NCBI GenBank assembly: GCA_017445015.1
Contig: JAFSVL010000017.1
Coordinates: forward strand, 1-64,000
Source: Bacteroidales bacterium
GTDB taxonomy: Bacteria; Bacteroidota; Bacteroidia; Bacteroidales; UBA932
Length of the DNA stretch: 64,000 nucleotides
Reading direction: 5' to 3'
Each line of letters opens with the position of its first letter. Within the stretch, counting starts at the first letter, position 1. Under the pieces are notes generated by a model that saw nothing but the letters and a program-made list of their open reading frames with translations, was not told the origin of the DNA and searched no databases. Positions 35,643 through 49,147 of this stretch are shown in pieces. The position numbers and the translations under genes are program-made.

Positions 35643-35715
35643 TTTTGGCACGGTCCTTGAATATTTGGCCTTTGAATAGTTTTTTCATAGGTTAAATATA
35701 GGTTTGAATGTGTGG

Positions 35716-35748
35716 ACCGTCCGCGATGGGATATCGGGGACGGTTTTT
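35716..35748 (+). terminator. Rho-independent terminator after the cyclophilin gene
   Basis: ACCGTCC (35716-35722) pairs with GGACGGT (35738-35744), followed by T to 35748 and a second T-tract beyond. It closes the flippase-cyclophilin unit. Confidence 0.7.
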
Positions 35749-35784
35749 CGTTTTTTTTGTTTAAATTGCAGCCGGTCTGCAGAG

Positions 35785-36738
35785 ATGAAGATGGAACCGA
35801 TAGATGCCCTTTTCCCCTGGGTGGACGGAAGCGACCCCGTGCTCTCCGCCCGCAGGGCGCAGTATGCTGCAGGAGATGCGCTCCACAACGATGAGGTGGG
35901 GGGCACGACCCGGTACGCCTCGCTGGGAGAGGTGAAATACTGCGTGGCCTCGCTGCTGCGTTTCGCCCCGTTTCTGCGAAAGGTCTTTATCGTGACGGAC
36001 GGACAGGATCCGGGCTTGCGCCCGATGCTCGAAAAATATTTTCCCGACCGTGCGGATGATGTGGTCATCGTGGACCATAAGGTGATTTTCAAGGGCTGGG
36101 AGCAGTTCCTTCCGACCTTCAATTCCAATTCCATCGACGTCCTGATCTGGAACATCCCCGAACTTTCAGAGCGTTTCGTGTATTTGAATGACGACATGAT
36201 GCTCATCCGTCCGGTGACTCCGGAGGACTTTTTCCGTCCGGAGGGAGTGGTCTGTTACGGAACGCGCTTCCCGGCCTTTTTCGGCCGGGTGCTCCGCAGC
36301 CTCCGTCCCTCGCATATCGGGTTCAAGGCGGCGATGCTCCGGGCCCTCGAACTGGAAGGGGGAGGGCGCTATTTCATCAACCTCGGACATGCACCCTGCC
36401 CCATGCTGAAAAGTTGGTTCGAAGACTGGGCGGGGCGCCGTCCGGACATGGTGGAGCTGAATCTGCGCGACAAGTTCCGCAGCCGCGAGCAGTTCGAAGG
36501 GCAGGAGCCCTTTTATCTGGATATGGACCGCCGGGGGCGCCTGGTGCTGATTCCGGACAAGAAGGCCGCCTTCTATTTCAAGCGGCACGGCGGCAGGGAT
36601 TATGTGGCGAAGAAACTTCGTTCCTTCGATAAAGACCATATGCGCAAGTTTGTCTGTTTCAATTCACTGAACCTCTGCACGCCGGAAGAGTCGGGGCAGG
36701 TGCTCCGCTGGCTGGGAGGGCGCATCGGAATTGAGTGA
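35785..36738 (+). CDS. Stealth-family sugar-phosphate transferase
   Basis: 317 residues. The four Stealth conserved regions are visible: CR1 IDALFPWVDGSDP, CR2 RYASLGEVKYCVASLLRFAPFL with IVTDGQDP, CR3 around LGHAPCPMLKSWFED, and a C-terminal Lys-rich region. Stealth proteins are phosphotransferases that add hexose-1-phosphate to capsular or wall polymers (the family name refers to immune evasion). ATG 35785 was selected because the open frame from 35704 crosses the terminator. It is in the neighbourhood of a flippase and, further on, Wzi (53287), but not in an operon with them. Acceptor unknown. Confidence 0.88.
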   Translation: MKMEPIDALFPWVDGSDPVLSARRAQYAAGDALHNDEVGGTTRYASLGEVKYCVASLLRFAPFLRKVFIVTDGQDPGLRPMLEKYFPDRADDVVIVDHKVIFKGWEQFLPTFNSNSIDVLIWNIPELSERFVYLNDDMMLIRPVTPEDFFRPEGVVCYGTRFPAFFGRVLRSLRPSHIGFKAAMLRALELEGGGRYFINLGHAPCPMLKSWFEDWAGRRPDMVELNLRDKFRSREQFEGQEPFYLDMDRRGRLVLIPDKKAAFYFKRHGGRDYVAKKLRSFDKDHMRKFVCFNSLNLCTPEESGQVLRWLGGRIGIE

Positions 36739-36818: not shown

Positions 36819-39287
36819 ATGAAGACCAAGTATTTTGCATGGCTGCCGGTGGTGCTTCTCACCCTGGGCGCCTGTGACGACAAGAAGAACCTCGGTCCCG
36901 AGGAACTGACCCTTTCCGCCACGGAACTCGACTTTGCATCGGCGTCCGAGAGCAAGACGCTGAACCTCAAGGCTACCATCGACTGGGGAATCCAGTGGAG
37001 TGATGAAACGGACAAGGCCTGGCTGAGCATCGACCCTGATGCCGGAAAGGCCTCGGCGGAAGAGAAGACCATTACCATCACGGTCCTGGAGAATACAGGT
37101 GAAAACCGCAGCGCCACCGTTACTTTCTACGGCAATGTCCTGCACAAGCAGACGGTGACCATCTCCCAGACCGGAGAGAAGGGCGACGGGGAAGCGATCA
37201 CCGTCGCCGAATTCATCGCAAAGGCGGATACCCAGACTCCCTTTGTGCTGGAAGGCAAAGTGAGCAATGTCAACGGCACGTACAAGTATTTCAACCTTTC
37301 GGACGGTACCGAGACGGTGCAGATTTACCAGCCGGTGAATTTTGACAGTTTCTCCATCGAAAACGGCGGAACGGCAAGGGTGAAGGGCGTGTATGAGAGA
37401 TTTGAGAAGAATGACGGCACCGTGGTCCACGAGATGAAAAACGGAAACATCCTCTCCTATGAGGGGCCCGACCTGGGCGACCATATCTTCGCCCAGACCT
37501 TCTCGGCAAGCCTCGGTGACTTTACGGAGGAGGTGAAGTCCGGAACCGTCAACCCCGTCTGGGCCTACGATTCCAAGTACAAATGCGCCAAGGCTACCGC
37601 CTATGTGGACGGCAAGAACAACGCTTCGGAATCCTGGCTGATCAGTCCGGAGATCGACCTTACCTCCGAGACGGCCGCCACCCTTGTCTTCGACCATGCC
37701 TGCAATTATTTCACCGCGGTATCCAACGAGGTCTCCCTCTGGGCAAGCAAGAACGGCGCGGCCTTCGTCCAGCTGGTCATCCCTACATATCCCACCAGTT
37801 TCACCTTCGTGTCTTCCGGGAAGATCAGTCTCAAGGATTTCCTCGGCGCCAAAGTGAAGATCGCGCTTGTGTACACTTCCACGGCGACAAAGGCCGGCAC
37901 CTATGAGGTGCAGAATTTCTTCGTCGATGCGGAGGACAGCGGCGAGACCGTCTATCCCAGGCAGGAAAACTGCAATTCGGTCAGCGAAATCATCGCCCTT
38001 GCCAAGGATACCAAGTTCAACTGCACGGCGGCGATGCTGGTGGTCGCCAAATCCACCGGCGGCGTGGTCGTGTCCGACCAGACCGGGAACCTGTATCTTT
38101 ACGATGAGCAGGCCACCGCGAACGTCGCCATCGGAGATAAGATTACCTTCTCCGGCCTGCGCGCCGTGTACAACGGGGTTCCCGAGGTGACCGGCCTTTC
38201 CAATGTGACGGTAGCGTCTTCGGGCAATGAAGTGACTTATCCCGAGCCCAAGGATATCATCGGCGGTTTTGACAGTTATTCCTCTGCCGTCGCCGAGTAT
38301 ATCTCCATGACGGGAACGCTCAGCAAGAGCCAGAATGCCGCCGGTACCGTAACGTATTACAACCTTGCCGTTCCCGGCGCGACGATGCAGGGCAGCGTTT
38401 CCCTGCCGTCCGCATCCCTGGGCCTGGACGCGCTTGAGGGCAAGATGATCACCGTTGCCGGATATTACAACGGCACGTCCGGCTCGTCCACCAAATACCA
38501 CAATATCATTGCCGTAAAAGTGGAGGAGGCGTCCGGACTGTCCATCCTGACGGTTGACAAGACGGACATCAGTGTCGCGGCCTCGGCGCAGACGGCCAGT
38601 TTCAACGTGGGTGGCAACACTTCTTGGACGGTGAGCTGCGACGACGCGGCGCTTACGGCAACGCCCGCTTCCGGCAGCGGCGCCGCGGAGGTCGTGCTGT
38701 CCTTCCCGGAGAACACCGACACCGAGAACGCCAAGACCTACACGGTGAGGGTCAGTACGGAGGATCCCGCCCCCGTCAAGGAGTTTACCGTCGTGATTAC
38801 GCAGAAGAAGGCTTCTTCGGGTACCGAGCAGGAGTTTGAACTTACAAACGACGAGATTGTCGCGGCCATCAATGCGGCTGTTGCCAACAAAGCCAATGGT
38901 TACACGGAGATAACGATAAACAGCGCGTCGGGAGAGTGGCAGGGTAAAATGAATGCCCAGAAAGATGTGTCCTATGTACAGCTCCGGGCAAAAGACGGTG
39001 CCTGTATCAAGTCTCCCGCCTTTGAGAAAGACATCAAGCGAATTGAGCTCCGGATTAATTCCAAGACGGGTGCGCAGCGCATTATCCATGCCATTCCTTC
39101 CGACAGCGTTCCGTCCTCCGGCGATTACAAGGCGGCCGACTGGGCTGCACAATATGGTCAGGCTGCCAGTACAGGCAACGTGGCAGAGACTTTGACAATT
39201 AATGTGGACGGCGCAGTCAAAGATTTTGCACTGATCGTTTCGGGCGGTGCCGTTTATATCGACAGCATATTGGTTGTCTGTGAATAG
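36819..39287 (+). CDS. Multi-domain surface lipoprotein: BACON, OB-fold, choice-of-anchor-J-like, second OB-fold and BACON
   Basis: 822 residues with a lipoprotein signal (lipobox LGAC, Cys19). The likely order is: BACON domain ~28-115; OB-fold ~120-190 (FVLEGKVSNVNGTYKYFNL); a choice-of-anchor-J-like lectin-type domain ~200-345 (ESWLISPEIDLTS); a second OB-fold ~360-510; a second BACON ~515-605; and a C-terminal ~200-residue domain I cannot name. BACON domains bind mucin or carbohydrate-like ligands in Bacteroidetes, and OB-folds of this type accompany YhcR-like and DUF5689 proteins. First gene of the nuclease operon. It may capture the substrate; that is inferred. Confidence 0.75.
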   Translation: MKTKYFAWLPVVLLTLGACDDKKNLGPEELTLSATELDFASASESKTLNLKATIDWGIQWSDETDKAWLSIDPDAGKASAEEKTITITVLENTGENRSATVTFYGNVLHKQTVTISQTGEKGDGEAITVAEFIAKADTQTPFVLEGKVSNVNGTYKYFNLSDGTETVQIYQPVNFDSFSIENGGTARVKGVYERFEKNDGTVVHEMKNGNILSYEGPDLGDHIFAQTFSASLGDFTEEVKSGTVNPVWAYDSKYKCAKATAYVDGKNNASESWLISPEIDLTSETAATLVFDHACNYFTAVSNEVSLWASKNGAAFVQLVIPTYPTSFTFVSSGKISLKDFLGAKVKIALVYTSTATKAGTYEVQNFFVDAEDSGETVYPRQENCNSVSEIIALAKDTKFNCTAAMLVVAKSTGGVVVSDQTGNLYLYDEQATANVAIGDKITFSGLRAVYNGVPEVTGLSNVTVASSGNEVTYPEPKDIIGGFDSYSSAVAEYISMTGTLSKSQNAAGTVTYYNLAVPGATMQGSVSLPSASLGLDALEGKMITVAGYYNGTSGSSTKYHNIIAVKVEEASGLSILTVDKTDISVAASAQTASFNVGGNTSWTVSCDDAALTATPASGSGAAEVVLSFPENTDTENAKTYTVRVSTEDPAPVKEFTVVITQKKASSGTEQEFELTNDEIVAAINAAVANKANGYTEITINSASGEWQGKMNAQKDVSYVQLRAKDGACIKSPAFEKDIKRIELRINSKTGAQRIIHAIPSDSVPSSGDYKAADWAAQYGQAASTGNVAETLTINVDGAVKDFALIVSGGAVYIDSILVVCE

Positions 39288-40455
39288 GATAATATTTTCA
39301 ACGGCTGTTGTCCTGCTGTGTCTTCAGGCTTGTACAAAGCCTGAAGACAATGGTGGCGGGGCGCTTTCGCTCGGCATCCCCCGGCTCCGGGTCAGCAATA
39401 TCGCAGATGCCCAGTTTATTACGGTGACTGCCGATGAGGCCTGGACCCTTGATATCGACTGGGGCGGGGCCGGGCCCTGGGGGGAACTCAGCGTCAGCAG
39501 CGGAATGCGCAGCAAGAAGGGCATTACCTTCAGCTGGACGAAGAATGCCGGGAGCGGCGAGCGCAGCGCCGTCTTTACCCTTAACGGAAAGACCCGCACC
39601 GTATCGCAGACTTTCGTGCAGGAGGGGACGCCTTCCACTCCGGTCCAGCCCGACATCCCCACCACCCTTCAGCCGGATATTCCCGGGGGCTGGCTGGAAC
39701 TTCCCGCCCTGGACAGGAGCGACTGTTGCTTCTTTACCCATTCCATGACGCAGGGTACCTATAAGGGCCGCAATTATTCCTTCTATCTGGACCCGAAAGC
39801 ACGCATTGCCCTCTGGGTGGCCTATCCGCTGAACAAGGCGCTCATCGGCAACGGCTCCCGCTCCGAAGAATGGGCCTTGGACCCCAAGGTCCCCGAGCAG
39901 TACCAGTCCGTGGTTTACGGCGGATACAAGTCGGGCGGTTATGACCGCGGTCACCAGCTGCCTTCGGCGGACCGTCTTGGCGACGGTATCAACGAAACCA
40001 CTTTCTACGGGACCAATATCACGCCCCAGCTCAGCCATTTCAACCAGCGGATCTGGGCCAGCCTGGAAGGGATGGTCCGCAGCTGGTCTTCCCAGTTCGA
40101 TACGCTCTATGTGGTGACCGGGACGGACGTCGCAGGCGCGACCCTGACGGCCTACGATAATTACTACAAGGAAATCACCGTTCCGACGGGATACTACAAG
40201 GTGCTGCTCGGCTACAAACGCAACGGCACGGTCGGCATCACCAACACGACCGGCGGCTATACCGGCATCGCCTTCTACTTTGAACACAGAAATGATTATC
40301 CCAACAGCAAAGAGACCATTTTCCAGCAGTCGATGACCATCGGCGCCATCGAAAATAAACTCGGTATGGATTTCTTTGTGAACCTTCCAGCCGTGGCCGG
40401 GCCCCCGTTTGCCGCCAAGGCGGAATCCACTTTTGACCCCTGGTGGAAAAATTAA
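39280..40455 (+). CDS. Lipoprotein DNA/RNA non-specific endonuclease (NUC1) with BACON domain
   Basis: 391 residues from GTG 39280, whose frame gives a textbook lipoprotein signal ending LQAC; it overlaps the preceding stop by 8 bp. Residues ~25-105 form a BACON domain, then a Pro-rich linker, then the His-Me-finger nuclease domain. The catalytic motif is DRGH (Asp222-His225, in GGYDRGHQLPSADR), with the Mg-binding Asn in FYGTNITPQLSHFNQR. NUC1 enzymes cut DNA and RNA without sequence preference. As a lipoprotein it should act at the cell surface or in the periplasm, on extracellular nucleic acid. Confidence 0.9.
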   Translation: MNRIIFSTAVVLLCLQACTKPEDNGGGALSLGIPRLRVSNIADAQFITVTADEAWTLDIDWGGAGPWGELSVSSGMRSKKGITFSWTKNAGSGERSAVFTLNGKTRTVSQTFVQEGTPSTPVQPDIPTTLQPDIPGGWLELPALDRSDCCFFTHSMTQGTYKGRNYSFYLDPKARIALWVAYPLNKALIGNGSRSEEWALDPKVPEQYQSVVYGGYKSGGYDRGHQLPSADRLGDGINETTFYGTNITPQLSHFNQRIWASLEGMVRSWSSQFDTLYVVTGTDVAGATLTAYDNYYKEITVPTGYYKVLLGYKRNGTVGITNTTGGYTGIAFYFEHRNDYPNSKETIFQQSMTIGAIENKLGMDFFVNLPAVAGPPFAAKAESTFDPWWKN

Positions 40456-40461
40456 TGGCTT

Positions 40462-41544
40462 ATGAAAAGAAAAATCCTGCTTGTCACCCTGCTTGCGCTG
40501 CTTGCCAGCGTCAGCGCCTTCCCGCAAAAGGTAAGCCAGAGTTATGTGATCGGGTTTTATAATCTCGAGAATCTCTTTGATACCGTGCATGACGAGGGGA
40601 AGAACGACTATCAGTATCTTCCCGACGGCCAGAACCAGTGGACGGAGGCCAAGTATCGCAAGAAATTGCAGAATATGGCAACGGTCATCCGTGCGATGAA
40701 AGAGGAAAACAAGCGCTGGCATACCGTGCTGGGGGTCAGTGAAATCGAGAACCGTCACGTGCTGGAAGACCTTGTGTCCCAGCCGGAAATCCTTGCGGCG
40801 AATTTCCAGATCGTGCATTATGACGGCCCGGACCGCCGCGGTGTGGACTGTGCGTTCCTCTATCGCCCTTCGGAATTCCAGTTGATAGAGAGCCTGACCA
40901 TCCCGTTTACGTTTTATGGGGTGGCCCTGAATAGTCCCATGACCCCGGAAGAGCGTAAAAACTTCCGCACCCGCGACGTGCTGATGGTGCGCGGGACCAT
41001 CGCGGGAGAAATGTTCGCCTTTTATGTGGCCCACCTGCCTTCGCGGCTGGGCGGAAAAGGCGGGGACCTGCGTGCGCGCGGTGCCGAAATCATTTACGAG
41101 CACGCGCAGCGCTTTGAAAAGCGCTTCCCCGGCATCAAGATCGTGGTGATGGGGGATATGAACGACGACCCCTTCAACGATTCGATGTCTCTGTTCCTGC
41201 ACGGACGGAAGACGCGGGAGGAAATGGAGGAGAGTGATTTCTACAATCCCTACTGGGCGATGCTGGAGGCGGGTTACGGTTCCAACGCCTATCGCGGGGT
41301 CTGGAGCATTTTCGACCAGGAACTGGTCAATTACAACCTGGCGCACGCCCCCGAAGGGACGCTACAGTTGCTTCCGCTCATCCAGCGGCGACGGCAGACC
41401 TTCTACGGCCGCGTCTTCAGCAAACCGTTCATGACGGTGCAGGAAGGTCCGTATAAGGGCACCCCGTTCCGTACCTTTTCCGGCGGGACCTTCATCGGTG
41501 GTTATTCCGATCACTACCCAACCTATATAATCGTAGGAAAATAA
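40462..41544 (+). CDS. Secreted endonuclease/exonuclease/phosphatase family protein
   Basis: 360 residues. A signal peptide (MKRKILLVTLLALLASVSAFPQ) is followed by the EEP fold: GFYNLENLFDT, GVSEIENRHV (metal-binding Glu), VYVAHLPSR-type FYVAHLPSRLGG, GDMNDDPFND and YSDHYPTYI (catalytic His). Family members are DNase I-like nucleases or phosphodiesterases. It lies 6 nt after the NUC1 gene and 1 nt before the TonB-receptor ATG, so the three are co-transcribed. Its substrate could be the oligonucleotides released by NUC1, or a phosphoester; the sequence does not decide. Confidence 0.88.
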   Translation: MKRKILLVTLLALLASVSAFPQKVSQSYVIGFYNLENLFDTVHDEGKNDYQYLPDGQNQWTEAKYRKKLQNMATVIRAMKEENKRWHTVLGVSEIENRHVLEDLVSQPEILAANFQIVHYDGPDRRGVDCAFLYRPSEFQLIESLTIPFTFYGVALNSPMTPEERKNFRTRDVLMVRGTIAGEMFAFYVAHLPSRLGGKGGDLRARGAEIIYEHAQRFEKRFPGIKIVVMGDMNDDPFNDSMSLFLHGRKTREEMEESDFYNPYWAMLEAGYGSNAYRGVWSIFDQELVNYNLAHAPEGTLQLLPLIQRRRQTFYGRVFSKPFMTVQEGPYKGTPFRTFSGGTFIGGYSDHYPTYIIVGK

Positions 41545-41545
41545 T

Positions 41546-44485
41546 ATGATAAAAAGACTTGTCCTTACCCTGGTCACCCTTTTTGCCGTCCTGACTCCCG
41601 CCACGGCCCAGTTGCCTTCCGGAGGAATCAAGGGAACGGTCATCAATCGCGCGGACCGCAGTCCGGTCACGGGTGCAAAGGTGGAAATTTTCAAGGAAGG
41701 CCGCCCCAGTGGCATCGTTTCAACCGTTCAGGACGGTACTTTCCTTCTGGAAGGGTATGACCGCGGCGACTGGATGATAATGGTCACCGCCCAGGGCTAC
41801 CTGCCGGTTCAACTGAATGTCACCCTTTCCGGCGGGGTCCGGGACCTCTTCAACATCGGCCTTACTCCGACAAAAGCCGTTGAAAATCCGGAAGACGGTT
41901 CCGACTTCATGGAATTCGACCTCGCGGATACCGGTTACAGCGACGCCCCGACGGTGCTCTTCTCCGACGATGTATATTCCAGCATCGTCGGATACAGTTT
42001 CGGCAGCGTGCGTTTCAAGAACCGCGGATACAATTCGGAGAGCCAGGACGTCCTGCTCAGCGGGATCAAGCTGAATGATGCGCTGACCGGCTATTCGCCC
42101 TGGTCGCTCTGGTCCGGCCTGAATGAAATCACCCGTTCCAAAGCCACGACCAATTCAATGGAAGCGTCCGACTATGCGCTTGGCGGCTACAACGGCGTGA
42201 CGAACATCTTCGCCAATCCCTCCAGCGTGCGCAGGGGGCTGCGGGTCAGCGCGCTGACCAACAGCGCGATGTACCGCCTCCGCCTGATGCTTACCTACGC
42301 TTCGGGCAAGAAGGACAACGGCTGGAGTTACGCCTTCAGCGCTTCCGGACGTTTTGGCGGGAATGACTGGATCCAGGGTGTCTTCTACCGCAGTCTGGCC
42401 TACTATGCCGGTGTCGAAAAGACCTTCGGCGATGCCCATACCCTCTCCCTGTTCACTTTCGCCACGCCGGGCATCCGGGGCACGCAGAACGCCTCCACGC
42501 AGGAAGTGTATGACCTGATGGGGGACAATATGTATAATTCCAACTGGGGCTACCAGAACGGCAAGCGGCGCAATTCGCGGATGCGCAAGACTTTCGAGCC
42601 CATTACGGTGCTCAAGTATGAATTTACCCCTTCCGACCGCTTCCGTTCGATGACGACCCTGCTCTGGCGCACCGGCAAGAACGGCTATACCGCGCTGGAC
42701 TGGTATGACGCGCAGGACCCCCGCCCCGACTATTACCGCAACCTCCCCAGTTACGCCTATATGGAGGAAGAGGATATCGACCGCAGCAATCCCGACAAGG
42801 CCGACTGGATGCGTTATGCCTGGACGGCATCCGGCAGTGAATTCGACAAGTACCGTCATGTGGACTGGGACCATCTCTACGATGTGAATGCAAGCAGTCC
42901 CGACGGGCGCAGCAAATACGCGCAGGAAGAGCGGCACGTCGATCAGAACGACATCAACCTGGCGGAAAGCATCAAGTGGCGCGCCAGCGACCTCTTTACC
43001 CTCACGGCCGGCGTCACCCTCAAATGGAACCGCACGGAGAATTACAAACAGATATGTGACCTGCTGGGAGGCAAGTACTTCCTCAATATCGACTCCTTTG
43101 CCGAACGCGATTTCGCCGTTTCCGAGGCCCGGGTCCAGAATGACCTGGATTATTGGATACGGCACGGCGAAGCGGAAAAAATCACCACCGGCGGCAAGTA
43201 CGGCTATGATTACATCGCTCAGGTACGCCGGGCGGGCCTCTGGGCCAACGGCGCGTTCCATAAGGGCGGTTTCGATGCTTCCGTCGGCGTTTCCGCAGGC
43301 TATGACGCCTTCTGGCGCGAGGGCCTGATGCGCAAGGGACTCTTTGCCGGCACGGACGATGCGGGCAGGGACATCATCATCGACGGCGTCAACCTTACCA
43401 CGCGGGACAGCAAGGGCAGGGTGGTGACCTCCAAGGGCAAATCCGAGGTCAGCCGCTTCTTTACCGGTTCAGCCAAGGCCTTTGCGGGCTATACCTTTGT
43501 CGGCGGTCACAGGATATGGGCGGACGCCGGCTTCTTCAACGACGCCCCCACTTTTAACGAGGCCTTTGTCTCGCCCCGTACACGCAATACCCTGATGGAC
43601 GGACTTACGACGAAGAAGACCCTTTCCGGAGACATCAATTACCAGTTCAGCCACAAAGGCTACAACGCCCGCCTGAGCCTCTACTACACCCGGATATGGG
43701 ACCAGTCCGACGTGATGAGTTTCTATGATGATTCCCAGCACTCCTTCACGAATTTTGCCATGACCGGCATCAGTCAGCGCCATATGGGACTTGAACTGGG
43801 CGTCAGCGTTCCGCTGCCCCTTCAGGGACTGAGCATCTCCGGCGTCCTGAGCCTGGGTGAGCATATCTATAACAGCCGTCCGCACATGGTGCAGACCATC
43901 GACAACAGTGCGGAAATCATCCGTGACGAGGAGGTTACCTGGTGGGACCGCACCCCGATTTACAAGATTGCCGGTTACTCCCCGGAGGGTACGCCCATCT
44001 ACGACCAGGATATCAACGGCAATTTTATCATCACCGGTTACAAAAAGCATTATGTGGCGGGAAGCCCGCAGGTGGCGGCGCAGCTCTCGCTCAACTATAA
44101 TATCAGGTACTGGTTCTTTGAAATCAACGGCCAGTGTTTCGCCCGTTCCTTCCTGGACATGAACCCGCTCTACCGTACGGATTATGCCTGCCGGGGAGGC
44201 GATGCCAATCCGGGCATTATCGAGGAGATGACCGCCCAGGAAGAATTCGCGCCGGCGTTCCTGCTGAATGCCAGCGTCGGAAAGAGCTGGTTTGTCAAGG
44301 GCAATCAGCTCGGCTTTTCACTCAGCCTCAATAATATGACAAACAACAAGAATGTCAAGACCGGAGGCTACGAGCAGACGCGCCTGATCGCGTCCTCGGG
44401 CAAGGACCGTTATTATCGCTTCGATCCCAAGTACTTCTACATGCCCGGCTTCAATTATATGTTAAACCTGTATTTCCGATTCTAG
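41546..44485 (+). CDS. TonB-dependent outer-membrane receptor with carboxypeptidase-regulatory-like N-terminal domain
   Basis: 979 residues. Signal peptide (~1-22), a carboxypeptidase-D regulatory-like domain (~27-110: GGIKGTVINRADRSPVTGAKVEIF), plug domain (VLLSGIKLNDALTGYSPWSLWSGL) and a large beta-barrel to the aromatic C-terminus (YMLNLYFRF). It should move a substrate across the outer membrane using the TonB-ExbBD system (7345-8136 is a candidate partner). No SusD gene is nearby, unlike glycan-importing SusC systems. Its neighbours are nucleases and an OB-fold lipoprotein, which suggests oligonucleotide or nucleoside-phosphate cargo. Confidence 0.9.
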   Translation: MIKRLVLTLVTLFAVLTPATAQLPSGGIKGTVINRADRSPVTGAKVEIFKEGRPSGIVSTVQDGTFLLEGYDRGDWMIMVTAQGYLPVQLNVTLSGGVRDLFNIGLTPTKAVENPEDGSDFMEFDLADTGYSDAPTVLFSDDVYSSIVGYSFGSVRFKNRGYNSESQDVLLSGIKLNDALTGYSPWSLWSGLNEITRSKATTNSMEASDYALGGYNGVTNIFANPSSVRRGLRVSALTNSAMYRLRLMLTYASGKKDNGWSYAFSASGRFGGNDWIQGVFYRSLAYYAGVEKTFGDAHTLSLFTFATPGIRGTQNASTQEVYDLMGDNMYNSNWGYQNGKRRNSRMRKTFEPITVLKYEFTPSDRFRSMTTLLWRTGKNGYTALDWYDAQDPRPDYYRNLPSYAYMEEEDIDRSNPDKADWMRYAWTASGSEFDKYRHVDWDHLYDVNASSPDGRSKYAQEERHVDQNDINLAESIKWRASDLFTLTAGVTLKWNRTENYKQICDLLGGKYFLNIDSFAERDFAVSEARVQNDLDYWIRHGEAEKITTGGKYGYDYIAQVRRAGLWANGAFHKGGFDASVGVSAGYDAFWREGLMRKGLFAGTDDAGRDIIIDGVNLTTRDSKGRVVTSKGKSEVSRFFTGSAKAFAGYTFVGGHRIWADAGFFNDAPTFNEAFVSPRTRNTLMDGLTTKKTLSGDINYQFSHKGYNARLSLYYTRIWDQSDVMSFYDDSQHSFTNFAMTGISQRHMGLELGVSVPLPLQGLSISGVLSLGEHIYNSRPHMVQTIDNSAEIIRDEEVTWWDRTPIYKIAGYSPEGTPIYDQDINGNFIITGYKKHYVAGSPQVAAQLSLNYNIRYWFFEINGQCFARSFLDMNPLYRTDYACRGGDANPGIIEEMTAQEEFAPAFLLNASVGKSWFVKGNQLGFSLSLNNMTNNKNVKTGGYEQTRLIASSGKDRYYRFDPKYFYMPGFNYMLNLYFRF

Positions 44486-44488
44486 GCC

Positions 44489-45607
44489 ATGAAAAAGTTT
44501 TTATATTCCCTGGCTCTGGCCTGTGCGGTGCTCTCGTCCTGTGACATCGAACCGCTTTACATAGAATCCGACCTCCGCTGGAAAAAGTACGAGCCGCAGA
44601 CGCTGCAGCCCACGCACACGATCCGGGAACTGTCCCAGATGTACCAGCCGGGCAAGCCTTTTGTCGTGAACCGGGACCTGATCGTGGGCGGGCAGGTGGT
44701 ATCCACGGACCAGCCGGGCAACTTCTACAAGAGCCTGTTCCTGCAGGACGAGACCGGCGGGCTTGAACTGAAAATCGGCCGCAACGGCCTTTATAACGAT
44801 TATAAGCAAGGACAGTGGGTGTATGTCAACTGCCGTGACCTGTCCATCGGCATGTACGGGTACAAGACCGGCAGCTACGGTGGCTCGGGCATGGTGCAGA
44901 TCGGCTTTTCCGACCCGACGGGGGAGTATGAGACTTCCTACATCGAATCCCCGCTGCTTGTGAATACCCGCATCATACGGGGCGAGCAGGGCACGATGCC
45001 GGAGCCGGTGGCCGTCGAATCTTCCGGGCAGTTGCCGAAATCCTCCGACAGCCAGGCCACCCATTCCCTGCTGGGCAGGCTGGTTACCCTGCGCGGCCTC
45101 TATTATGCAAAGGAGACTTTCGTGCTGCTTTATCTGGATTCGACCAAGGACAAGAAACTGTACACCAACCGGGTGTTCCTTTCGGATACCAACGGCGCCA
45201 CGGGTGACGACAAGACCCACGGCATCACCACCTGGGCCATGTCCAAGTCCAAGATGACGGAATACCTCTGCGCCGGCCTCTGGGACGACTGCAAGGTGGG
45301 CAGCGGAAGTACTTTTACGGGGCAGACGCTCGCCGATTTCCGGGGCGACGGTTCCTATCCCGGCGTTGAGAAGGCTGCCTATAGCGTGAGCCAGTACTTT
45401 ACGATGGGGCAGACGAGCATCCAGGTCCGGACGAGCGGGTTCTGCAAGTTCGCGGACCTCGAAATGCCCGCGGACGTACTCAGCGGGCGGCGTGCCCTTG
45501 ATATGACCGGCGTCCTGACCATCTATCAGGGAAGCCTCCAGCTGGTTGTCAATTCCCAGGACGACTGGCGTTATTCCGATACAGGAAAAAAATTATATGA
45601 ACGATGA
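44489..45607 (+). CDS. DUF5689 (OB-fold) lipoprotein
   Basis: 372 residues; lipoprotein signal ending LSSC (Cys18). The DUF5689 signature IRELSQMYQPGKPFVVNRDLIVGGQVVSTDQPGNFYKSLFLQ is clear, followed by the glycine-rich RNGLYNDYKQGQWVYV strand and a C-terminal domain. DUF5689 proteins are Bacteroidetes surface lipoproteins often encoded beside TonB receptors and nucleases; the OB-fold suggests ligand binding. It starts 3 nt after the receptor stop and its stop overlaps the peptidase ATG by 4 bp. Best guess: the receptor's surface partner, replacing SusD. Confidence 0.85.
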   Translation: MKKFLYSLALACAVLSSCDIEPLYIESDLRWKKYEPQTLQPTHTIRELSQMYQPGKPFVVNRDLIVGGQVVSTDQPGNFYKSLFLQDETGGLELKIGRNGLYNDYKQGQWVYVNCRDLSIGMYGYKTGSYGGSGMVQIGFSDPTGEYETSYIESPLLVNTRIIRGEQGTMPEPVAVESSGQLPKSSDSQATHSLLGRLVTLRGLYYAKETFVLLYLDSTKDKKLYTNRVFLSDTNGATGDDKTHGITTWAMSKSKMTEYLCAGLWDDCKVGSGSTFTGQTLADFRGDGSYPGVEKAAYSVSQYFTMGQTSIQVRTSGFCKFADLEMPADVLSGRRALDMTGVLTIYQGSLQLVVNSQDDWRYSDTGKKLYER

Positions 45608-47613
45608 AACACGTCTCGCTGATGATGGCGGCAATGATGGCAATGGCATCCTGCACATCCCTAAATCCGTTTTTTGAAGAATGGGACACCCCTTACGGGA
45701 TCCCTCCCTATGAGAAGATCAAAGTTTCCGATTACATGCCGGCCCTGCGGGAGGGGATGAAGCGGCAGAGCGCAGCGGTGGAGGCCATCGTGACGAATTC
45801 CGACGCGCCGACCTTCGGGAATACCGTGGCCGCGCTCGAAATGAGCGGCCTGTTGCTTTCCAAGGTGGAGGGCGTGCTCTTCAATGTCAGCGAAACGGAC
45901 CGCAGCGATGCCCTGGACGCCGTCGTGGAGGAGGCCCTGCCCCTGCTGAGCGCCCATTCCGATGCCATTTCCTTCAATAAGGCGCTCTATGCCCGCGTCG
46001 CCGCGGTGATGGAAAACGAATATGACGCGCTGGACCGGGAGCGGCAGATGGTGCTCAAAGAACTGTGCGAGTCGTTTGTCCGGGAGGGCGTGAACCTGCC
46101 GGAGGCCGTGCAGGATACGCTCAAGGAAATCAATGCGCAACTTTCGCTCAAGACGCAGAAAATCGGCAACAATATCCTTGCGGAGTCCAATGCGTTCAAG
46201 GAGAAATTCGGCTTCAGCGTCAGCGCTTATCCGGACAAGATGACCTCGACGGAGGACCGGGAACTGCGCCGTGCCTACAATGAATTCTATACCTCCCGCG
46301 GGCATCGCGGCAATGGGAACGACAATACCGCCCTCATCCTCGAAGTGATGCGTCTGCGCATCCGCCGTGCGCAAATCCTGGGTTTCCCCACGCCCGCGGC
46401 CTACGAACTCGCCCCCAAGATGGCGGGTACGTCCGATGCGGTCGATGCGTTCCTTTCGCCCATCATGCAGGCTGCGCTCAAGGCGGCCGGAAGGGAACTG
46501 AAGGACATGCAGGCGATGATGGACGAGGATATCCGCGCCGGCCTCCTTCCCGAAGGCAGTACGATCCAGCCCTGGGACTGGTGGTATTATGCGGAGAAGG
46601 TGCGCAGGGCGCGCTATGACCTGGACGAGGAGCAGACCAAGCCCTATTTCCAGATTGACAGCGTGGTGAAGGGACTCTTCCTCGCCGCGGGAAAACTCTA
46701 TGGCATCCAGGCAGAGCGGCTCTCCGGCGTACCTGTCTATAACCCGGAGGTGACGACCTACAAGATCAGCGATGCCGACGGCTCGCTGGCCGGCATATTT
46801 ACCACCGACTATTTCCCGCGTCCGAGCAAGCGGGGCGGTGCGTGGATGAACAATGTCCGGGAACAGTATATCGCGCCGGACGGTACCGACGTGCGTCCCA
46901 TCATCGTCAATGTGGGCAACCTGCACGAAAATCTCTCCGTGGATGAGGTGCAGACCGTGTTCCACGAGTTCGGCCATGCCCTGCACGGGCTGCTTTCGCG
47001 CTGCCGTTATGCTTCCGTGAGCGGTACGTCCGTCAAGCGCGACTATGTGGAAATGCTCTCGCAGTTCAATGAGAACTGGGCCTTCCAGCCGGAACTGCTC
47101 GCGGAGTATGCCCGCAACGCTCAGGGCGAGGTGATTCCCGCGGAACTCGTGGAAAAAATCAATAATGCCTTGAAATTCAATCAGGGATTCATGACCACCG
47201 AACTCTGCGCCGCATCGATCCTGGACATGAAATGGCACGAGTTGACGGAGATTCCTGAAGAGGCGTTCGCCGACCCGGCCGCCTGGATTGATGCCTTCGA
47301 AGCGAAGGTCTGCGCCGATATGGGCCTGATTCCCGAAATTGCGCCCCGTTACCGCACCACCTACTTCAACCACATCTTCTCCAGCGGCTACAATGCCGGT
47401 TATTACGGATACCTTTGGGCGGAAGTGCTGGACAAGGATGCCTTCAGTTTGTTCGAGGCGCGTCCCGATGTGTTTGACAAGGAACTGGCCACCCGCTTCA
47501 AGGAGACCTTCCTGCAGAGGGGCGGCTCGGAGGAGCCGATGGTGCTCTATGAGTCGTTTGCCGGCCGGAAACCGGACCAGGCGGCCTTTCTCAGGGCCAG
47601 AGGACTTGACTAG
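45604..47613 (+). CDS. dcp: M3-family zinc metallopeptidase (peptidyl-dipeptidase Dcp-like), lipoprotein
   Basis: 669 residues. The signal carries a lipobox-like MASC (Cys17). The catalytic zinc motif is HEFGH (His454-His458), in VFHEFGHALHGLLS. Length and the N-terminal helical channel match the oligopeptidase A/Dcp group, which cuts dipeptides from peptide C-termini. The ATG overlaps the DUF5689 stop (ATGA), so the two are translationally coupled. It may process peptides in the periplasm, or free nucleic acid from protein in this operon; the latter is inference. gpmI follows 16 nt later. Confidence 0.9.
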   Translation: MKHVSLMMAAMMAMASCTSLNPFFEEWDTPYGIPPYEKIKVSDYMPALREGMKRQSAAVEAIVTNSDAPTFGNTVAALEMSGLLLSKVEGVLFNVSETDRSDALDAVVEEALPLLSAHSDAISFNKALYARVAAVMENEYDALDRERQMVLKELCESFVREGVNLPEAVQDTLKEINAQLSLKTQKIGNNILAESNAFKEKFGFSVSAYPDKMTSTEDRELRRAYNEFYTSRGHRGNGNDNTALILEVMRLRIRRAQILGFPTPAAYELAPKMAGTSDAVDAFLSPIMQAALKAAGRELKDMQAMMDEDIRAGLLPEGSTIQPWDWWYYAEKVRRARYDLDEEQTKPYFQIDSVVKGLFLAAGKLYGIQAERLSGVPVYNPEVTTYKISDADGSLAGIFTTDYFPRPSKRGGAWMNNVREQYIAPDGTDVRPIIVNVGNLHENLSVDEVQTVFHEFGHALHGLLSRCRYASVSGTSVKRDYVEMLSQFNENWAFQPELLAEYARNAQGEVIPAELVEKINNALKFNQGFMTTELCAASILDMKWHELTEIPEEAFADPAAWIDAFEAKVCADMGLIPEIAPRYRTTYFNHIFSSGYNAGYYGYLWAEVLDKDAFSLFEARPDVFDKELATRFKETFLQRGGSEEPMVLYESFAGRKPDQAAFLRARGLD

Positions 47614-47629
47614 TTGACAATGTAAAAGA

Positions 47630-49147
47630 ATGGAAAGAAAAGTACTGTTGATGATACTCGACGGATGGGGCGAGGGTAAAGAAGACCATTCCAATGCCAT
47701 TTATACGCAAGGCACACCCTTTATCGATTCCCTTCGCGCCAAATATCCGCATTCGCATCTTCATGCCTGCGGCGAGTATGTGGGCCTGCCCGACGGGCAG
47801 ATGGGTAATTCCGAAGTGGGGCACATGAACCTCGGCGCCGGGCGCGTAGTCTATCAGGACCTGGTGAAAATCAATATCGCCTGCAGGGAGCATGCCCTGA
47901 TGCAGAATGCGGAAATCAAGGCCGCCTACGATTATGTGAAGGCCAGCGGCAAGAAACTGCATTTCTTCGGCCTTTGTTCGCATGGGGGCGTGCATTCTTC
48001 CCTGGACCATCTGTATGAGTTCCTCTCCGAGGCGGAGAAAGCCGGACTGAAGGACGTGTTCGTCCATTGCTTTATGGATGGCCGCGATACCGATCCCCGT
48101 TCCGGCTATGGTTTCGTGAAGGAACTTGAGGAGAAGATGGCGGCTACGACGGGCCGCGTGGCTACCGTCTGCGGCCGTTTTTATACCATGGACCGCGACA
48201 AGCGCTGGAACCGCGTGAAAGAGGCGTACGATATGCTCGTGGAGGGCAAGGGGGCGCAATTTTCGTCAGCGCTGGACGGAATCCAGGCATCGTACGATGC
48301 GGACGTAACCGACGAATTCATCAAACCCATCGTCATTTGCGAGAACGGGCAGCCGCTCGCGAAGGTCGGGGAAGGCGACTGCGTGATTTTCTATAATTTC
48401 CGCAATGACCGCGCGCGCGAACTGACCGCGGTGCTTACGCAGCAGGATATGCCGGAAGAGGGGATGCACACCCTCCCGCTGCATTATTGCTGCCTTACCC
48501 CTTACGACGCTTCCTTCAAGGGGCTCCATATCCTCTTTGACAAGGAGGAGGTGCGTGATACCCTCGGCGAGACGGTGTCCAGGGCCGGGAAGCGGCAGTT
48601 GCGTATCGCCGAGACGGAGAAGTACGCCCACGTGACCTTCTTCTTCAACGGCGGGCGCGAAACTCCCTTCGAGAACGAAGACCGCATCCTGGTGAACTCG
48701 CCGAAGGTGGCGACCTACGACCTTCAGCCCGAAATGAGCGCCATCGAGGTTACGGACAAACTCATTGCCGCGATCCGCAGCGAGGAAGAGGATGTCATTA
48801 TCCTGAACTTCGCCAATGGCGATATGGTGGGCCATACCGGGGTTTACGATGCCATCCGCAATGCCGTAGGCTGTATCGACGGTTGTGTGGAAGCCGTCGT
48901 GACGGCGGCGCTCGCACACGGCTATGTGGTGCTGCTGACCGCGGACCACGGCAATGCCGATTATGCAGTGAACGAGGACGGCAGCCCCAATACCGCCCAT
49001 TCGCTGAACCGGGTGCAGTTCATCGTGATCGGCGAGCCTTCGGTGAAGGAGGTGAAGGACGGCGCCCTTTGCAATGTGGCGCCCACCATCCTCAAACTGA
49101 TGGGCATCCCGCAGCCGGAGGCGATGACGGCGGAACCGTTGATATAA
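47630..49147 (+). CDS. gpmI: 2,3-bisphosphoglycerate-independent phosphoglycerate mutase
   Basis: 505 residues, the usual length. The alkaline-phosphatase fold has the nucleophile Ser61 ([14 protein letters not shown]) and metal ligands in [33 protein letters not shown] and LTADHGNAD. It interconverts 3- and 2-phosphoglycerate using two Mn2+. ATG 47630 lies 16 nt after the peptidase. It may simply be read through from the upstream operon. The 3' flank holds a dispersed repeat. Confidence 0.97.

Follow-up and report, generated by a model that had tools for sequence, protein, structure and literature searches.

Gene content of the receptor operon

A stretch of 64,000 nucleotides from a Bacteroidales bacterium (GenBank assembly GCA_017445015.1, contig JAFSVL010000017.1; hereafter the window) was analyzed. 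ORF (open reading frame) reading of the window showed six plus-strand genes in one tight run at positions 36819-47613, which we consider a candidate outer-membrane DNA-import operon built around a TonB-dependent receptor. The genes and their products, P1 to P6, are as follows.

36819..39287, + strand: P1, BACON/choice-of-anchor J lipoprotein with OB-like segments, 822 aa (Pfam, NCBIfam)
39280..40455 (alternative start 39247), + strand: P2, DRGH-type DNA/RNA non-specific endonuclease lipoprotein, NUC1 (PF01223)
40462..41544, + strand: P3, predicted exported endonuclease/exonuclease/phosphatase (EEP) protein (PF19580)
41546..44485, + strand: P4, divergent TonB-dependent receptor, orthologue of RA0C_RS04915 by reciprocal searches and tree (CarboxypepD_reg)
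44489..45607, + strand: P5, DUF5689 lipoprotein, orthologue of RA0C_RS04920 by Riemerella comparison (DUF5689 Pfam match)
45604..47613, + strand: P6, M3 (Dcp-like) lipoprotein peptidase, a peripheral member (Pfam, NCBIfam)

Neighboring genes are separated by 6 nt (P2/P3), 1 nt (P3/P4) and 3 nt (P4/P5), and they overlap at P1/P2 and P5/P6. The first-pass annotation had described the same run, and its observation of six tightly spaced genes was borne out. Pfam searches assigned Endonuclease_NS (PF01223, E 1e-37) to P2, Exo_endo_phos_3 (PF19580, E 6e-85) to P3, DUF5689 (E 9e-37) to P5, Peptidase_M3 (E 6e-110) to P6 and BACON (E 6e-14) to P1, whose choice-of-anchor J match came from NCBIfam. The OB domain of P1 was below the cut-off in the window copy and above it in all three same-genus copies scanned (L035, L040, L041). 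For P4, CarboxypepD_reg alone was above the cut-off, and the protein itself showed no Plug or barrel Pfam match. Plug and barrel matches were present in two more distant P4 homologues, L099 and L105, and P4 was therefore classed as a divergent TonB-dependent receptor. Outside the operon, two more proteins with BACON-like and DUF5689-like matches, some of them below the cut-off, were observed in the same genome (L002 on C17 and L004 on C64).

In SusCD polysaccharide utilization loci, one operon encodes enzymes, surface lipoproteins and a TonB receptor whose N-terminal domain is CarboxypepD_reg. The present operon likewise combines a CarboxypepD_reg TonB receptor with surface lipoproteins and enzymes. 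However, no SusD family member was found among nine proteins scanned with Pfam and six scanned with NCBIfam, nor any carbohydrate-active enzyme among the operon proteins scanned with these databases. Assignment as a SusCD locus was rejected, since SusD was missing from the scanned proteins. The earlier description of the genes as a nucleic-acid operon around a TonB receptor that lacks SusD, with export-like nucleases and OB-type surface lipoproteins, was supported.

Export features were judged by simple sequence rules (lipobox, signal-peptide-like start). Lipoprotein boxes were predicted in P1, P2, P5 and P6, and signal-peptide-like N-terminal starts in P3 and P4; the lipobox of P2 and the start of P3 agree with the earlier proposal that both nucleases are exported. 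The lipobox Cys was invariant in all 15 NUC1 rows (the window and 14 of the 15 same-genus loci described below, the truncated L036 being omitted) and in all 16 DUF5689 rows. In the same 15 NUC1 rows, R234, H236, N266 and E274 of P2, numbered from the 39247 start, were invariant, and the D of DRGH, present in the window P2, varied within the genus. The position of DRGH at residues 222-225 agrees with the GTG start at 39280. The closest PDB matches of P2 were solved nucleases of the DRGH family. For P3, the motif residues, including those of GDxND and SDH, were invariant in 14 of 14 rows, which comprised the window, 10 of the 15 same-genus loci, L050, L052 and Riemerella. PDB profile searches gave no useful template for the receptor, with matches only in its N-terminal CarboxypepD_reg-like part, or for DUF5689, with one chance-level match; a single-sequence fold of P5 had a mean pLDDT of 28.6.

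Orthology and conservation of the receptor locus

The closest characterized counterpart of the operon core was found in Riemerella anatipestifer. A transposon screen (PMC8459023) is the sole paper naming DUF5689 in the literature searched. It reports that RA0C_RS04915, an outer-membrane CarboxypepD_reg protein, adjoins RA0C_RS04920, a DUF5689 protein, and that deletion of either abolishes natural transformation. We compared the window with the genome of strain CCUG25054, which was found via the printed comEC primer; the strain of the paper is ATCC 11845. P4 gave a full-length match to the Riemerella receptor (27% identity, E 5e-93), P5 matched the DUF5689 protein (E 8e-14), and P3 matched the EEP beside the pair (E 4e-54). 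With the Riemerella receptor as the query, P4 was the only match in the window's genome, and with P4 as the query the Riemerella receptor ranked first (E 3e-60; next paralogue, 2e-20). The two are thus reciprocal best matches. CCUG25054 contains a single DUF5689 protein, encoded directly downstream of the receptor. The gene order there is recA, four genes, comEC, two genes, EEP, receptor and DUF5689, the intervening identities being a sequence reading, and it agrees with the published tags in steps of five (recA 04870, comEC 04895, EEP 04910, receptor 04915, DUF5689 04920). By these comparisons, P4 and P5 are orthologues of RA0C_RS04915 and RA0C_RS04920. The nearest characterized relative found for the receptor is a natural-transformation gene, and not the siderophore or glycan receptor that would have spoken against the first-pass annotation.

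Both loci contain a full-length receptor orthologue on the same side of a branch with support of 100, DUF5689 directly downstream and an adjacent EEP. They differ in that the EEP gene is divergent in Riemerella and lies within the operon here, and in that the Riemerella DUF5689 protein is longer (469 aa). Furthermore, no NUC1 was found in the Riemerella genome, whereas a DRGH nuclease, an OB/BACON lipoprotein and a peptidase are encoded in the present operon.

Conservation among near relatives was analyzed in 41 genomes, namely the window's own, 24 of the same genus and 16 of the same order. A full-length receptor was present in 15 of the 24 same-genus genomes, and eight of the other nine were less than 90% complete. 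As had been proposed for the gene set, the order NUC1-EEP-receptor-DUF5689 on one strand was kept in relatives, in all 15 same-genus receptor loci, and this linkage exceeds chance. A P1-like gene lay upstream in 14 of the 15; the fifteenth (L036) starts inside NUC1 at a contig end. The M3 peptidase occurred in 12 of the 15 same-genus loci and in none of 26 other orthologous loci, indicating that it is a peripheral member; the specific role earlier given to it was not upheld. Five of the 16 same-order genomes (G025, G026, G029, G032, G035) hold a receptor that belongs to this group; one of these receptors is partial. DUF5689 adjoins the receptor in all five except G025, and EEP does so in two of them. 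Two of the three loci without EEP, L051 and L058, are cut at their start by a contig end that falls inside the receptor or shortly before it.

A receptor profile was then run against a class-wide sample of 128 other genomes with completeness of at least 95%; scoring covered the six best candidates of each genome, so that orthologues may be missed. The window's genome and 26 of the 128 others scored at least 666 bits, and the next match scored 174 bits. These 26 orthologues were spread over 14 families. DUF5689 adjoined the receptor in 24 of the 26 loci, the exceptions being L078 and L098 (contig end). EEP lay within 6 kb in 19, on the opposite strand only in 16 of these, and NUC1 was found in three, all from one family of the window's order. 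In contrast, 12 paralogue loci contained no DUF5689, EEP, NUC1 or M3 (Fisher p 3e-8 for DUF5689 and 4e-5 for EEP, uncorrected for relatedness). These controls were hand-chosen among matches below 175 bits, not drawn at random, and their partner profiles were built from neighbors in the fetched loci, so that remote partners could escape. One further paralogue from the order set, L056, has a DUF5689-like neighbor (99 bits). Neighborhood calls relied on longest-ORF selection and are rough in L080, L081, L085 and L086. In a tree of 55 receptors, 37 rows (the window, Riemerella and all 34 rows with a DUF5689 neighbor among them) were split from 18 paralogues with a support of 100. The tree was made by a quick method with SH-aLRT support; nine same-genus receptors were thinned out, and L058, L059 and L098 were omitted. 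In family f26, four receptor-bearing genomes (G120:C4, G146:C1, G048:C81, G088:C14) have NUC1 on the receptor contig, approximately 9-31 kb away.

Several nuclease families were observed at orthologous loci. In Bacteroides finegoldii the row reads fimbrillin-NUC1, fimbrillin, receptor, DUF5689 and EEP, and the same fimbrillin-NUC1 architecture was shared by the same-order genome G160 (L087). The B. finegoldii set (L136, NZ_OY725948.1), which has no M3, stands on a 27 kb circular record labeled as a plasmid and typed as non-mobilizable; this record may represent either a piece of the chromosome or a genuine additional copy. The Flammeovirga kamogawensis locus contains two annotated EEP genes, the receptor, a DUF5689/DUF6359 protein and a DUF5689-Endonuclease I fusion (L134:11951-14143). 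In Aureibacter tunicatorum, the receptor occurs with two annotated DUF5689 proteins, Endonuclease I and two annotated EEP genes. At L091:12156-14372, DUF5689 is fused to a PLD nuclease with a type IX secretion system (T9SS) tail, and L083 and L084 contain a second, T9SS-tailed EEP. The locus of Prevotella sp. oral taxon 299 consists of the receptor, DUF5689 and an OB-fold protein, and EEP was not found among the four neighbors scanned. Because DUF5689 is fused to nucleases, it is likely a nucleic-acid-binding domain. Together with the repeated recruitment of nucleases to the locus, these fusions are the main reason why the cargo of the receptor is likely nucleic acid.

Competence genes in the host and its relatives

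Homologues of ComEC (core only), DprA and NamZ are encoded in the window's genome, as is a 376-aa frame with two HHH matches; their presence is weak evidence, as these genes are very common. The ComEC gene (G000:C92:37014-37730, L115) is cut by a contig end. Each of the 24 same-genus genomes searched gave a ComEC match, and besides the window's own, the five same-genus genes read (L116-L120) encode proteins of 356-394 aa. Two of these five were scanned and showed the channel domain only, without DUF4131 and without the lactamase-type nuclease domain. The Riemerella ComEC likewise gave no PF00753 match. In genome G163 (L127:2210-5445), the gene immediately before comEC lies on the same strand and encodes a 387-aa HHH-repeat protein, an arrangement that would be expected of a ComEA-like partner.

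By coordinates, NUC1 lay within approximately 7 kb of ComEC in three of 18 NUC1-bearing genomes, and seven of the eight extracted stretches were read. In G129 and G099, NUC1 is four or five genes from comEC, and in G070 (L126:3308-6737) a DRGH nuclease gene and comEC are divergently oriented, 28 nt apart. This genomic link was suggestive and was not used as evidence.

In the class sample, ComEC was detected in 128 of 129 genomes and DprA in 126 of 129, while 26 of the 128 others hold the receptor; HHH was found in every one of 55 hand-picked genomes, whether or not they held the receptor. Since the competence genes are near-universal, no signal of co-occurrence with the receptor can be seen. 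Thus, co-occurrence with competence genes neither backs nor refutes transformation, and it lends no help to the import reading set out below.

Proposed role and alternatives

We propose, with a probability of roughly two in three, that the operon is an outer-membrane DNA-import system, most likely feeding the HHH/ComEC route and yielding nutrients as a by-product. DNA would be held at the cell surface by P1 and the DUF5689 lipoprotein P5, and the DRGH nuclease P2 would make ends or trim the DNA there. The receptor P4, presumably powered by TonB, would draw it into the periplasm, where P3, the exported EEP nuclease, would process it before it passes to the ComEA-like HHH protein and the reduced ComEC. 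By analogy, P2 or P3 could also supply second-strand degradation, because in pneumococcus EndA degrades the second strand and the nuclease domain of ComEC is likely inactive (PMC12455585). EndA and the Moraxella entry nuclease NucM belong to the DRGH family (PMC6384898). P2 shares with them this family and export, but it is predicted to be a lipoprotein and its gene lies beside that of a TonB receptor in one operon, and whereas EndA and NucM are tied to DNA entry, P2 is assigned a putative role in it here. Between NUC1 and EEP, only EEP was found in Riemerella. Transformation of Riemerella is lowered in tonBA and tonBB mutants, two of the three tonB-type genes, and not in a tbfA mutant (PMC8383284).

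Several observations weigh against such a system. P4 is only 27% identical to the Riemerella receptor. As no NUC1 gene was found in the Riemerella genome, this nuclease is not needed for transformation there, and the main-text parts of PMC8459023 used here, supplements excluded, do not name EEP as a transformation gene. The effect of tonBB is attributed to iron by its authors (PMC8383284), and Flavobacterium johnsoniae has homologues of the pair, yet tested non-competent (PMC8459023). Moreover, the genus of the window has a ComEC cut back to the membrane-channel core, which may equally reflect lost competence. In genome G026 (L052), which is 99% complete and holds the receptor/DUF5689/EEP trio, ComEC was not detected, and DprA was not detected in G120, which also holds the trio.

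Some of these observations would suit a nutritional system, in which DNA or RNA is cut outside the cell, P4 imports the oligonucleotides and P3 digests them as a source of carbon, nitrogen or phosphate, transformation playing no part. The operon encodes two nucleases and a peptidase, and the receptor is patchy, whereas ComEC and DprA are near-universal. Because of this patchiness, the trio-bearing relatives without detectable ComEC or DprA and the reduced ComEC, nutrition keeps an appreciable share of the probability, although we consider it on balance unlikely as the whole explanation. Riemerella cannot be transformed without the orthologous pair (PMC8459023), and DNA must arrive there at recombination length; the orthology of P4 and P5 to this pair therefore points toward the import of long DNA. 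Phosphate removal lowered Riemerella transformation (PMC8383284), in work in which expression of these genes was not tested. In addition, a literature search aimed at such a nutritional system found none by title or abstract. Oligonucleotide import in the manner of a polysaccharide utilization locus, as the first-pass annotation had it, is thus possible, but as the chief role it is less supported, given the transformation-essential orthologues.

It is improbable that P4 carries another cargo, such as a metal complex, a glycan or a peptide, and that the nucleases serve in the clearance of biofilm or extracellular DNA and are co-transcribed with it by chance. As P4 has no Plug or barrel Pfam match, its cargo cannot be read from its family, and a peptidase and an iPGM gene also stand in the gene run. 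However, the receptor, DUF5689 and EEP are linked across many families, neither partner occurred in any of the 12 paralogue loci, and several nuclease families have been recruited to the same locus.

If the operon does import DNA as proposed, it may bear on two questions at once, outer-membrane DNA entry and single-strand formation. In the naturally competent Porphyromonas gingivalis, the step of import into the periplasm is stated to be unclear; no type II or type IV secretion system has been identified, and the conjugation pilus is uninvolved (PMC11532111). For Riemerella, the two essential genes are described as being of unknown mechanism, and the protein that makes the single strand is called unidentified (PMC8459023). 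The present locus is a candidate for the outer-membrane DNA entry gate of Bacteroidota, and EEP, which flanks the pair even in Riemerella, is a candidate for the strand-processing nuclease. A broader picture can be drawn only tentatively, and we regard it as doubtful: the trio would be a widespread, pilus-free, TonB-powered DNA gate of Bacteroidota that reaches gut and oral Bacteroidales. In it, swappable nucleases (EEP, DRGH, Endonuclease I, PLD) would perform the strand degradation that the ComECs cannot, and the ComEC of the genus would therefore have shrunk to a bare channel.

The distribution of the pair in Flavobacteriaceae has been known since 2021 (PMC8459023). The present comparisons extend its range to the window's order and to Bacteroides finegoldii, and DUF5689 gains a likely role in nucleic-acid binding. 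The pair itself is thus already known, and its spread in Bacteroidales, the EEP linkage, the nuclease operon and the DUF5689-nuclease fusions appear to be new. No report of these four was found by title or abstract start, in searches that were partly aimed elsewhere and had most subscription journals and bioRxiv outside their scope.

The flanks of the operon were also read. Upstream neighbors are a cyclophilin gene and a Stealth-family (CR1/CR2) gene, the latter at 35704-36738 in the window and ending 80 nt before P1. Downstream, the run continues past P6 with the iPGM gene, which starts at 47630 after 16 nt.
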